A stretch of DNA of 42,919 nucleotides from an uncultured Verrucomicrobiales bacterium (GTDB lineage Bacteria; Verrucomicrobiota; Verrucomicrobiia; Verrucomicrobiales; DEV007). Position numbers and translations under genes: made by a program. Location: positions 1 to 42,919 of the forward strand of contig CALAHF010000157.1 in the NCBI GenBank assembly GCA_937891465.1. The letters are read 5' to 3'. Positions 12,937 to 21,884 of this stretch are shown here, in pieces. The first letter of the stretch is position 1, and every line of letters begins with the position of its first letter. The notes under the pieces were generated by a model. That model had not been told where the DNA came from and made no database searches. It was given only the letters and a program-made list of their open reading frames with translations.

Positions 12937-14236
12937 GGCCCTACACGATTTTGAGTGGGCTGACATCCAGATTACCGCAATAAAAGTAGACTGCGGTTTT
13001 AAAATTCTCCTGATTTCTAAAGCCGCCTGATTGGCGTTTGATTGACATTATTTTACTGTTAATCCGTTCCGCCACTGCATTGGTGATGCGATGGGTGCAG
13101 TATGTCAGGATATTTTCGATGTGACGTTTGACCAACTCGCCGAGCTTCACGATTGGACCTATTCCGCTGGTCGAGGCGATTTCATACCAGCGCTCAAAAT
13201 ACTTCCGCGCCCAAGTGACTGAGCGATACTCCCAGAGCTTGCGCAGCATCTCCTTCACCGCCCATGCCTGAGCCGTGTAAAGCGTGCTTTCAGTGAGTTC
13301 TCGGAATGCCTTTTTCCGGTGGAATTTCGGCGGCCCTTTCCGGTGCAGCCAGTCATATTTCGTTCCCTTAAGCCGATCATCCCCAAGCGCGCTCAACTCT
13401 TTATGTTCAGCGCGACGCACCTGATCCACCGCTTTCCCGGCGTGCTGCATCACGTGAAAAAATCAAAGACGATCTTTTTCTTTGCCTCCGGCACCGCTTC
13501 CAGCGTGCTCGTAAAATAGGCTTCCCACATATCCATTCCGATCGCCTCAATCGAGGCCAGTTATTCGTCTGAAAGCATGTCGTAGTAGGCTTTCAGGCTC
13601 GTCTTCTTGCGATCTTCATTGATAAAAAGAACACAACGCTCCTTCAAATCATAGACCAAGGTGTGGTAACGGTGCCCTTTTTTGTAGGCCTTCTCATCGA
13701 TTCCGATGTGAGTCGCTCCCATCTCCATGCGGCGGGAAAGCCCACGATCCACTCCGCGTTTCTCCACCGCCCAAACTGCATCCCAGCTGGCGCGGATGAC
13801 TTCGCCGGTGCCTTTAACCGTTTGGCATCGATGAAGGGTTCGCAGAATGTGTATCTCCATCAGCAACGTAAAGCGGCTCCCGTCCTCAGCCCATGGAGCT
13901 TCGATCTGACGCACCCCGCAATCACCGCAACGAACCCGCGGCAATCGAGCGACCAAAAATGTTTTCGCCTGACAGGTATCCAAATGCCGCCACTCGCGCT
14001 CCCGGCCATGATCGTGAAGCGGACAGGCTTTGCAACACTCCGGGCAATCCCATGTTGCATCGTCCCGATGCGCAAGACTCACACGAACTTCTTCGTTTTC
14101 CAGTTCATCGTTGCCCTCCACCCCGGTCACATACCAAGGCTCAACAACACCCAACAATTTGAGATGAAATTCTTCAAAATTCATACATCAACCTACCCAA
14201 GTCGAACCATCCACCCACTCAAAATCGTTTAGAACC
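12937..14236 (-). mobile_element. ISL3-family insertion sequence, inactive
   Basis: A 1300-bp element bounded by 23-bp imperfect inverted repeats. The left end is 12937-12959 (GG, then CTACACGATTTTGAGTGGG) and the right end, read inward on the minus strand, is 14236-14214 (GG, then CTAAACGATTTTGAGTGGG); 20 of 23 positions match. The single transposase gene fills the element. The family is known to make 8-bp target duplications, but the flanks here (GTTTGTTC on the left, ATAAAGGA on the right) do not match, so the element has taken part in a rearrangement or deletion after insertion. The right end abuts a histidine-kinase remnant directly. Confidence 0.85.
12941..14184 (-). pseudogene. ISL3 transposase with one nonsense codon and one frameshift
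   Basis: Frame 1 starts at 14184 (MNFEEFHLKLLGVVEPWYV). It has the N-terminal zinc-finger pattern CPECCKACPLHDHG and CGDCG, a helix-turn-helix region, and the first catalytic Asp in ATHIGIDEKAYKKGH. It stops at TAA 13561-13563, where DEQLASIEAIG would be expected; a single C-to-T change of CAA explains it. The same frame continues LASIEAIGMDMWEAYF to KKKIVFDFF (second Asp) and then fails at a six-A run (13457-13462 on the plus strand). A one-base indel restores HVMQHAGKAVDQVRRAEHK, and the C-terminal half runs to 12941 with the catalytic Glu region AVAERINSKIMSIKRQSGGF. Reconstructed length is about 414 residues, normal for the family. The last codons (SPLKIV) lie in the left inverted repeat. 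Confidence 0.9.
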
Positions 14237-19849: not shown

Positions 19850-21712
19850 TCACTCGCTCAACAAGGGATTGGCCATTTTCTCCGGACTCAGCAAATCATC
19901 GAGCTGCGTCCTGGAGATCCAGCCTTTTTCCAACACGAGGTCATAGACGCTGCGATTCGTCGCGAGCGCTTCTTTCGCTATGGAGGCGGACTTCTCGTAG
20001 CCCAGCACTGGATTGAGCGCTGTGACGATTCCGATGGAGTTTTTGACGTAGTCGGAACACTTCTCGCGATTCGCGGTGATGCCGTTGACGCAGCGGGTCG
20101 ACAGGACAATGGCAGCGTTCTTTAGCAACATCAGACTGCTCAATAAATTGTAAGCCATGATTGGTTCAGCCATGTTCAACTCGAACTCAGTCGCTTCCGC
20201 CGCCATTGAGACGGTCAGGTCCGATCCGATAATCTGATAGCAGATCTGGTTCACCACTTCCGGAATGACCGGATTCACTTTCCCCGGCATGATGGACGAG
20301 CCCGGTTGCATGGCGGGAAGATTGATCTCTCCTAAACCGCAGCGCGGTCCCGACGATCCCCAACGCAGGTCGTTGCATATTTTGGAAATCTGAATCGCGG
20401 TGACTTTGAGAGCGCCGCTCATCTCCGCAAAGTCCGCTGCATCCTGAGTGGCTTCAACGAGATCGTGGGCAAGCTTCACGTGCAGACCACTCATCTCATT
20501 GATCTTGCGCGTGCAAAGGGCGGCGTAACCCTGTGGACTGTTGAGCCCGGTGCCGATCGCGGTCGCCCCCATGTTGACGACGAGGAGTTCTTCGGTGATG
20601 CGCTCGAGTCGACGGATCCCGTCATTCACCATGACAGCGTAGGCGGCGAACTCCTGGCCGAGAGTCATGGGGACGGCGTCCTGATTTTCAGTCCGGCCCA
20701 TCTTGATGACATCTGCGAACTCCTCTGCTTTCTCCTTAAGAGACTTCTTCAATACTCTCAGTGCTGATACCGTCTCGTGAGTTGAAGCCACCACCGCGAT
20801 CTTTACCGCCGTCGGGTAAGCGTCATTGGTCGACTGGGAACAGTTTACGTGATCGTTCGGGTGGCAGTGCTTGTAGTTGCCTTTTCGATGTCCCAGAATC
20901 TCAAGTGCGACGTTCGCGATAACTTCGTTCGCGTTCATGTTGGAGGAGGTGCCTGCCCCTCCCTGAACCATATCGACCACGAAATGCTCGTGAAATTCAC
21001 CGGCGAGGATGCGGTCGCACGCCACGCAGATCGCATCCGCGATTTTCGGATTGAGCACGCCGAGGATTGAGTTTGCAGTGGCCGCTGCTTTTTTCACATA
21101 GGCAAACCCATTCACCAGGTGCTGGAAGTGGGACAGTTTGATCCCTGAAAAGGTAAAGTTCTCCATCGCCCGAGTCGTTTGCACACCGTAGTAGTGGCTA
21201 TTGGATACCTCGCGGTCGCCCAAGGAGTCGTGCTCGCGCCGGTAACCGCTGATGTCACTCCGCTTGTTCTCACCTTGCAGTAACATTTCCGTCGTCTCCC
21301 GAAGTCGTGAGTTGGTGCGCCGCGCCGCCCTGCGTAGAAAATGGTAGTAGGTCTTCGGATTTTCCTGCCGAAATTTCTCGATAGCTTCTTTGGGAATCGC
21401 CCAGACGCTGGTTTCCTCCAGGGCGAGGCCCGAGACACTGTGGTCGAGGTCATCAATAAAAAGCGACTCACCGATGACCGCTCCTTCCTTCAGGCAGGCG
21501 ATCGTGACATTCCGCCCTGCGAGGCCGCGGTGAAGGTCGATTTTTCCATCCAGCACGATGCCGAACCATCGACGAGGGGCTGATTCATGGAAGAGGTAAT
21601 CGCCCTGAGGAAATGTTTTCTCCTTACCTAGCGCCGCGAATTTCTTCGACTCCTCGAAAGACACTTCCATGTCGCCTGCGACACGTTCGATAAGTTCTCT
21701 GGTGATTTTCAT
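19850..21712 (-). CDS. aspA: Aspartate ammonia-lyase with N-terminal cyclic-nucleotide-binding-like domain
   Basis: 620 residues from the ATG at 21712. Residues about 25-135 form a CNB/CRP-like beta-roll (FPQGDYLFHESAPRRWFGIV, LDGKIDLHRGLAGRNVTIAC, EGAVIGESLFIDDLDHSVSG). After a linker, residues about 158-615 are a full aspartase/fumarase-superfamily enzyme: EHDSLGDREVSNSHYYGVQT, GGAGTSSNMNANEVIAN, HVNCSQSTNDAYPTAVK and the catalytic serine loop GSSIMPGKVNPVIPEVVNQ, all matching AspA more than FumC. The reaction is L-aspartate to fumarate and ammonia in the cytoplasm. In the CNB domain the phosphate-binding cassette has Gly-Glu but shows His-Ser where cAMP binders have Arg-Ser/Thr/Ala, so canonical cAMP binding is doubtful. 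Ligand control of the lyase is inferred from the fusion. It converges with the sulfatase gene and has no same-strand neighbour. Confidence 0.93.
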   Translation of the reverse strand: MKITRELIERVAGDMEVSFEESKKFAALGKEKTFPQGDYLFHESAPRRWFGIVLDGKIDLHRGLAGRNVTIACLKEGAVIGESLFIDDLDHSVSGLALEETSVWAIPKEAIEKFRQENPKTYYHFLRRAARRTNSRLRETTEMLLQGENKRSDISGYRREHDSLGDREVSNSHYYGVQTTRAMENFTFSGIKLSHFQHLVNGFAYVKKAAATANSILGVLNPKIADAICVACDRILAGEFHEHFVVDMVQGGAGTSSNMNANEVIANVALEILGHRKGNYKHCHPNDHVNCSQSTNDAYPTAVKIAVVASTHETVSALRVLKKSLKEKAEEFADVIKMGRTENQDAVPMTLGQEFAAYAVMVNDGIRRLERITEELLVVNMGATAIGTGLNSPQGYAALCTRKINEMSGLHVKLAHDLVEATQDAADFAEMSGALKVTAIQISKICNDLRWGSSGPRCGLGEINLPAMQPGSSIMPGKVNPVIPEVVNQICYQIIGSDLTVSMAAEATEFELNMAEPIMAYNLLSSLMLLKNAAIVLSTRCVNGITANREKCSDYVKNSIGIVTALNPVLGYEKSASIAKEALATNRSVYDLVLEKGWISRTQLDDLLSPEKMANPLLSE

Positions 21713-21884
21713 GGGAAGCGTAAACAAAAAATTGAGATCAAAAGGGTGCGAGTATGGACAGTTCCACCCGCCTGACGAGTCATTTCGAACCGGGCGAGTT
21801 AGTCAAAGACTATGTAATCTAAAGATTCGAATGCCTCGATTTGCGACCTTCTAATCCAAAAGAGAAAGACTTTAAACCCGGCCG

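Follow-up and report, generated by a model that had tools for sequence, protein, structure and literature searches.

The gene described here, in the window (the whole stretch of 42,919 nucleotides that was analysed), encodes an aspartate ammonia-lyase preceded in the same chain by a CNB domain. Across phyla, two columns of this CNB domain that hold Arg and Gly in cAMP binders have changed jointly, to His and Arg. As it recurs in several bacterial phyla, the fusion is probably a real candidate switch for aspartate breakdown, and we give roughly even odds (about 0.5) to its being an aspartase gated by its CNB domain, with a signal other than cAMP or cGMP bound in the canonical way. A CNB domain fused to an enzyme is a known kind of protein; this enzyme, the paired residue change and its constancy appear to be new. 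Among the matches listed in searches of the PMC literature, a body that leaves most subscription papers outside its scope, none links aspartate ammonia-lyase to a CNB domain, and the table of 30 CNB families in PMC2246266 names no lyase fusion.

Table 1. Positions of the fusion gene and its parts in the window
Feature	Position	Strand	Basis or remark
CNB-aspartate ammonia-lyase fusion gene	19850..21712	-	620 aa + stop
N-terminal CNB domain, residues 1-152: beta-roll with a short helix in the cassette (82-85), then a long C-helix (119-150)	21257..21712	-	PF00027, AlphaFold2 model, fold match to 3gyd
Arg47, beta2-beta3 loop, column of the coupled Gly (Gly169 of PKA)	21572..21574	-	counts in fused proteins vs CNBs outside the fusion
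Phosphate-binding-cassette segment, residues 77-95	21428..21484	-	alignment to 2pqq; conservation
Glu82, cassette Glu	21467..21469	-	Glu in 95/100 fused proteins
His91, replaces the phosphate-binding Arg	21440..21442	-	His in 98/100 fused proteins, Arg in 0
C-helix and junction to lyase, residues 119-157	21242..21358	-	model helix 119-150
Aspartate ammonia-lyase domain, residues 158-620	19853..21241	-	NF008909 score; match to 6wng
Thr341-Glu342-Asn343 (TEN), Glu at the AspB His188 position, Gln in others	20684..20692	-	sequence alignment
Catalytic SS-loop GSSIMPGKVNP, residues 471-481	20270..20302	-	sequence, AspB alignment

The gene runs on the minus strand from an ATG at 21712 to a stop codon ending at 19850, with an alternative in-frame TTG start at 21727, and its 620-aa frame is intact and without internal stop. 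The CNB domain (residues 1-152) is followed by a complete AspA-type lyase (158-620). Three Pfam domains exceed their cut-offs: PF00027 at residues 32-118 (52.3 bits against 27.5), PF00206 (Lyase_1) at 166-496 (310.8 against 27) and PF10415 (FumaraseC_C) at 562-614 (81.9 against 32.5). The intact frame and these domains bear out the initial annotation, which had placed an AspA catalytic region and a CRP-like beta-roll in one frame; in the aligned relatives, too, the two halves are joined without a stop or a break of frame, and the domain is absent from the known aspartase structures found, in keeping with its statement that standard AspA has none. A chance or assembly join is ruled out, since the architecture is present in 100 distinct fused proteins, one of them encoded in the complete genome of Desulfosarcina alkanivorans.

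The lyase domain scores 706.8 bits with NF008909, the AspA subfamily model of NCBIfam (cut-off 510). With the aspA equivalog TIGR00839 it falls narrowly short (667.8 against 681.2), and we therefore do not claim that it equals E. coli AspA in function; with the class II fumarase model of NCBIfam it is far below the cut-off (494.7 against 664.75). A misassigned fumarase is ruled out: within the window's order, matches of at least 53% identity lie in long frames, and the others, at 39-45%, in frames of mostly about 460-560 aa. Among solved lyases 6wng comes nearest (E 2e-166); the two share 56% identity in an alignment of 464 residues, with a Z of 55.0 and an rmsd of 1.7. When the domain is aligned to AspB (offset 154 residues), 10 of 11 active-site positions are identical (T101, S140, T141, N142, T187, S318, S319, M321, K324 and N326), the exception being His188, which is Glu342 in the fusion. 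T101, S140, T141, S318 and S319 also count among the active-site positions of AspB. The AspB pocket residues given in PMC11744663 are T187, M321, K324, N326, H188 and N142, of which His188 and Asn142 are placed in the carboxylate pocket and also contact the amine. We infer that the fusion lyase is an aspartase converting L-aspartate to fumarate and ammonia. Asp162, just behind the CNB domain, aligns with Asp10 of E. coli aspartase, a residue linked to activation by aspartate and magnesium; a literature search on this Asp10 as an allosteric residue yielded nothing of use. In the window's genome there are three Lyase_1 genes, and only the fusion matches the AspA query at E 1e-90.

The substituted position divides the family. 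The active-site motif is GRTENQDA in one branch (Verrucomicrobiota/Desulfosarcina), in which Glu stands at the amine-contacting position, and GRTQLQDA or GRTHLQDA in the other lyases compared, which have Gln or His there. By this motif, the 100 fused proteins comprise 54 of the EN type and 46 of the QL type. A further 88 lyase frames, counted without removing duplicates and with fumarases among them, have no CNB match; just one of these carries the EN motif, L070, and its upstream side is cut by a contig end; among the frames read, the EN branch is fused wherever the N-terminus is visible. The replacement of His/Gln-Leu by Glu-Asn behind the substrate Thr may alter amine or carboxylate contacts. 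A separate locus (L016, genome G023) starts as a CNB-aspartase, diverges from the fused proteins after the SS-loop and ends at a contig edge; its C-terminal part looks fumarase-like by eye, as in a recombinant or an assembly chimera.

The N-terminal region belongs to the CNB superfamily both by the profile cut-off and by the predicted fold with its cassette helix. In an AlphaFold2 model built from 20 sequences (mean pLDDT 87.3) the roll is complete, and both the cassette helix (82-85) and a long C-helix are formed, so that at the level of the fold, cavity aside, the pocketless model named in the initial annotation as a refutation was not obtained. VIA-align matches the model to 3gyd (Z 17.8, rmsd 3.0, 152 aligned), and the fold matches of the model are CRP, GlxR, PKA, PKG, HCN and similar proteins, many of them cyclic-nucleotide receptors; families missing from the VIA-align list are not counted as excluded. 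A viral fold search added nothing. In the full-length model pLDDT drops below 50 at the junction (147-154), and the C-helix is predicted to lead into the lyase N-terminal beta-hairpin within about 20 residues. Arg136 of the C-helix and Arg158, where the lyase starts, are spaced by 20-23 residues in 65 of 68 fused sequences.

The cassette, GESLFIDDLDHSVSG, aligns with the CNB structure 2pqq without gaps within the cassette and within the beta2-beta3 loop, with one gap between the two segments; the cassette Arg of 2pqq is matched by His91 and its loop Gly by Arg47. Over the 100 distinct fused proteins, position 91 is His in 98, Tyr in one and Ala in one, position 47 is Arg in 97, Pro in two and Ser in one, and position 82 is Glu in 95; in the 54 proteins of the EN (TEN) branch all three residues are invariant. 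Of the features of canonical cAMP/cGMP-binding CNB domains, the fusion has the cassette Glu and lacks the cassette Arg and the loop Gly. The initial annotation had noted a cassette without Arg, which holds in all 100 proteins and can be refined, because the Arg is not merely lost; it is replaced by a nearly invariant His. The further suggestion of a ligand other than cAMP or cGMP is plausible. The exceptions to the signature are L047 and L205, which deviate, and L022 and L118, which have Pro at position 47.

The comparison set consisted of 36 CNB rows (33 distinct) outside this fusion, taken from related genomes as the next-best query matches and hence non-random; 31 of the 36 lie in frames of at most 273 aa and five in frames of 404-667 aa, so that they are outside this fusion and not necessarily standalone. 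The cassette Arg column of the 33 distinct domains holds Arg in 14, Ala in nine, His in five and other residues in five. Of the 14 domains that have cassette Arg, 12 also have loop Gly, as against none of the 19 that lack it; loop Arg occurs in none of the 33. PMC2246266 describes co-evolution of the cassette Arg with a Gly of the beta2-beta3 loop, whose C-alpha touches the Arg side chain, and the tie between the two residues in our comparison set supports the identification of column 47 with that Gly. A CNB domain without the cassette Arg, even with His in its place, is not rare, since by position the FnR and Flp consensus sequences tabulated in PMC2246266 have His at the Arg column, as do five of the 33 controls. 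What distinguishes the fusion family in these data is the fixed pair of cassette His and loop Arg.

Two sets of exceptional loci deserve mention. L205 (genome G627) has a degenerate CNB domain (30.5 bits; Arg at the Glu column and Ala at the His column) with an intact lyase frame, and may represent loss in progress. L022 and L118 (genomes G092 and G309, both of genus g19) combine loop Pro with a retained cassette His, and class III cyclases were not found in their genomes. Genus g19 has fused QL-type copies in these two genomes and, among the matches listed, in none of its other sampled genomes.

Conservation, as mean weighted bits over 68 fused sequences, is highest in beta2 and the beta2-beta3 loop (2.81) and in the cassette (2.59), followed by beta3 (2.52) and beta4 (2.27); the helices lie at 1.45-2.01 (N-terminal helices 1.45-1.85), and the linker at 1.23. 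Because beta3 and beta4 are nearly as conserved as the cassette, conservation does not sharply single out the pocket. Taken with the model, the pattern favours a working pocket, and a re-tuned pocket is likelier than a dead one because the cassette Glu is kept in 95 of 100 proteins and the cassette helix is kept in the model.

The alternative that survives best is that the CNB domain is a silent scaffold, free of ligand and with side chains filling the cavity, that serves only dimer or tetramer assembly, stability or docking; a role confined to assembly had also been raised in the initial annotation. Such filled, ligand-free cavities are described for CRP-family proteins (PMC12937710). Of the 36 CNB rows from outside the fusion, 22 likewise lack the cassette Arg; conservation extends to beta3 and beta4; and unfused lyases nested among fused ones indicate that the lyase can evidently dispense with its CNB domain. 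A scaffold does not, however, account readily for the beta2-beta3 loop and cassette being the best-conserved segments, or for retention of an identical Glu/His/Arg set across phyla, and we consider it a rather unlikely explanation.

Somewhat less probable still is that the domain continues to bind a cyclic nucleotide (cAMP, cGMP, cUMP or cCMP), with His91 and Arg47 substituting for the Arg. Glu82 and the cassette helix are retained, and a cUMP-bound domain, 8jsk, is among the fold neighbours of the model (Z 15.6). Class III cyclases occur in 49 of 54 fused genomes (50 of 55 genome records, G502 being the same as G583), and the window's genome has five copies; most fused genomes are therefore likely to have cyclic nucleotides available. 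However, the cassette Arg is present in none of the 100 fused proteins, and in PKA a change of this Arg to Lys alone is reported to cut cAMP affinity nearly ten-fold (PMC2246266). In addition, the fusion persists in genomes in which class III cyclases were not found: five of the 55 records (G092, G309, G518, G547 and G595), in a search that covered class III among the cyclase classes and genomes that are possibly incomplete (the CNB domain of G547 was not read).

A CooA-like haem or gas sensor, with His91 as haem ligand and the anaerobic enzyme tuned to oxygen, CO or NO, is very improbable: a conserved His analogous to the PKA Arg ligates haem in CooA (PMC2246266), His91 occupies that position and 17 of 55 loci have anaerobic-type gene neighbours, but haem binding by CooA requires absence of the region equivalent to residues 72-82 of EcCRP (PMC12937710), which is present in the fusion with its Glu and helix 82-85, and no second axial ligand was identified, residue 42 being His in only 53 of 68 sequences. 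A nucleoside site of the trypanosomatid type is rejected, because its diagnostic Glu is absent in the alignment, where the column is Leu84.

For the preferred reading, a CNB-gated aspartase with another ligand, we propose the following scheme. Glu82, His91 and perhaps Arg47 would hold a small ligand in the pocket, a metabolite or nucleotide that is probably anionic, in place of the canonical Arg-mediated binding of cAMP or cGMP; that Arg47 reaches the pocket is a guess. Ligand binding would shift the C-helix, which runs into the lyase N-terminal beta-hairpin, and the shift would set the activity or the tetramer state of the lyase. Aspartate deamination would thereby answer to carbon/nitrogen or energy status; that the ligand is a carbon/nitrogen metabolite is again a guess, by analogy. 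The role suggested by neighbouring genes in related genomes would be to supply fumarate for anaerobic respiration, or to release ammonia.

Several known systems are comparable. Bd1971 (CNB-EAL) and the acetyltransferase Pat, both cAMP-regulated, likewise join a CNB domain and a catalytic domain in one chain, with a different enzyme; both were weak matches in a sequence search of solved structures (E 0.08 to 0.91). AspA (6wng, 1jsw) and AspB (1j3u/3r6v) have in common with the fusion the whole lyase domain, the SS-loop and the substrate residues, but their chains of about 470 aa have no CNB domain, and the TEN branch differs from them by Glu at the AspB His188 position. With the cAMP-binding CNB domains of CRP, the PKA regulatory subunit and GlxR the fusion shares the fold, the cassette helix and Glu, and the C-helix, whereas it has cassette His for Arg and loop Arg for Gly, and neither a DNA-binding nor a kinase partner. 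A precedent for a non-nucleotide ligand is the CRP-family nitrogen regulator NtcA, whose CNB domain binds 2-oxoglutarate at the site equivalent to that of cAMP (PMC12937710); this reuse of the fold is also tied to nitrogen metabolism, although NtcA, unlike the fusion, keeps the cassette Arg and has a DNA-binding domain. In the PKA regulatory subunit of trypanosomatids, as in the fusion, the cassette Arg has been replaced, and there the ligand has changed to nucleosides (PMC10959531), so an Arg-less CNB domain can still be a high-affinity receptor. That protein differs in having an extra Glu in place of PKA Ala202, where the fusion, by alignment, has Leu84.

The gene neighbourhood offers some indication of physiological role. 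In 17 of 55 distinct loci the next gene upstream, read from the same strand and separated by 16-119 nt, encodes a DcuA/B C4-dicarboxylate transporter (four of the 17 assigned by Pfam scan and the remainder by similarity). All 17 are among the 39 EN loci, and none of the 16 QL loci has this neighbour. Such adjacency is the classic setting of anaerobic aspartate use, though not in the window's family: no Dcu neighbour occurs at the window's gene, which is flanked by a sulfatase gene and an esterase gene, or at the seven wide-flank loci of its family (L231-L237). E. coli has an aspA-dcuA operon in which L-aspartate is the fumarate precursor for fumarate respiration (PMC10634366), and PMC10634366 and PMC11617674 cite work whose title concerns control of E. 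coli L-aspartase through GlnB and the nitrogen system. A succinate dehydrogenase/fumarate reductase membrane-subunit-like protein is encoded in the fetched flank of four of the 17 Dcu loci (one scanned, the others by similarity).

In five of the 17 Dcu loci, a CNB domain, acetate kinase and PduL-type phosphotransacylase follow in one chain (two Pfam-scanned, five by similarity). This triple fusion lies just downstream of the CNB-aspartase, at L038:7895-10207 and L039:7863-10178 and also in L220, L222 and L224, so that two adjacent CNB-fused metabolic enzymes share one gene cluster. A signal common to both enzymes is rejected: in two of the CNB-acetate kinases, read by eye, Ala or Met replaces the Arg and the loop column holds Val or Ile, and the signature is therefore not shared.

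A search for the combined CNB and lyase architecture, as the initial annotation had proposed, finds it to be recurrent. The 100 distinct fused proteins come from Verrucomicrobiota, relatives of Desulfosarcina, Acidobacteriota and Bacteroidota/Ignavibacteria, with single hits elsewhere. With the names taken as given in MAG titles, fused loci among the matches listed are from Verrucomicrobium, Chthoniobacter, Akkermansia, Desulfosarcina, Desulfobacterales, Geobacteraceae, Acidobacteria, Thermoanaerobaculales, Vicinamibacterales (contig-cut), Anaerolineae, Myxococcota, Ignavibacteriales, Melioribacter, Draconibacterium and Bacteroidetes. Within the window's order, 41 of 239 genomes yield 44 matches of at least 53% identity, every one in a frame of 593-767 aa (that of G511 with a stop inside); the CNB domain was confirmed for the ones read as loci only. 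Across a set of genomes sampled from the phylum, the CNB-plus-junction profile matches at E 1e-45 or better in six of 387, all from the window's order, and, at E 1e-120 or better, another 11 genomes out of 288 have unfused H-type lyases. Full-length fused matches are present in 18 of 147 genomes of the Desulfosarcina class and in 11 of 198 genomes of the phylum of the Ignavibacteriales genome, and fused matches in 22 of 199 genomes of the phylum of the Acidobacteria genome, two of them cut at profile position 496. The expectation in the initial annotation that similar fusions may exist in other PVC genomes finds no support in that form: the fusion is not chiefly a PVC trait, since in the phylum sample it was seen only in the window's order, while fused matches also occur in the Desulfosarcina class and in two other phyla.

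The trees bear on how this distribution arose. An 89-row lyase tree made by a quick method unites the EN rows in a single branch (support 100), which is nested within a Q-type lyase branch in which fused and unfused rows alternate. A more careful 45-row tree contains no single clade of fused lyases; the fused label requires six changes (seven if the cut row is scored as unfused), at least four of them on well-supported branches. Unfused Endozoicomonas groups with fused rows of the Desulfosarcina class (98/91), and unfused Bacteroidales/Phycisphaerales rows group with fused Ignavibacteria/Bacteroidetes (100/98). In the CNB tree, 41 fused domains lie on one side of 24 others, weakly (70/86, long branches flagged). 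Because of this grouping and the shared signature, one old fusion followed by several losses would suit the trees better than many gains.

A broader and more tentative version, which we regard as possible yet doubtful, is that the CNB-aspartase is ancient and its CNB domain a new class of metabolite receptor. The Q/E-type branch, which takes in unfused enzymes of Campylobacterota, Flavobacteria and the gammaproteobacterial Endozoicomonas, would then derive from a sensor-gated ancestor and have shed the sensor in several lineages. The receptor would have a Glu/His/loop-Arg site in lieu of the Arg/Gly pair and would couple carbon/nitrogen or energy state to aspartate deamination.

If the CNB domain gates the lyase, aspartate breakdown would answer to a signal within one protein, without a transcription factor. 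The joint change of cassette Arg to His and of loop Gly to Arg, which is held constant from phylum to phylum, amounts to a natural experiment on ligand change in CNB domains, and for enzyme engineering the family may offer a naturally regulated aspartase with an altered amine-contact residue. Elsewhere in the window, two adjacent minus-strand frames (12941-13453 and 13561-14184) look, from their sequence, like the halves of a broken ISL3-like transposase.
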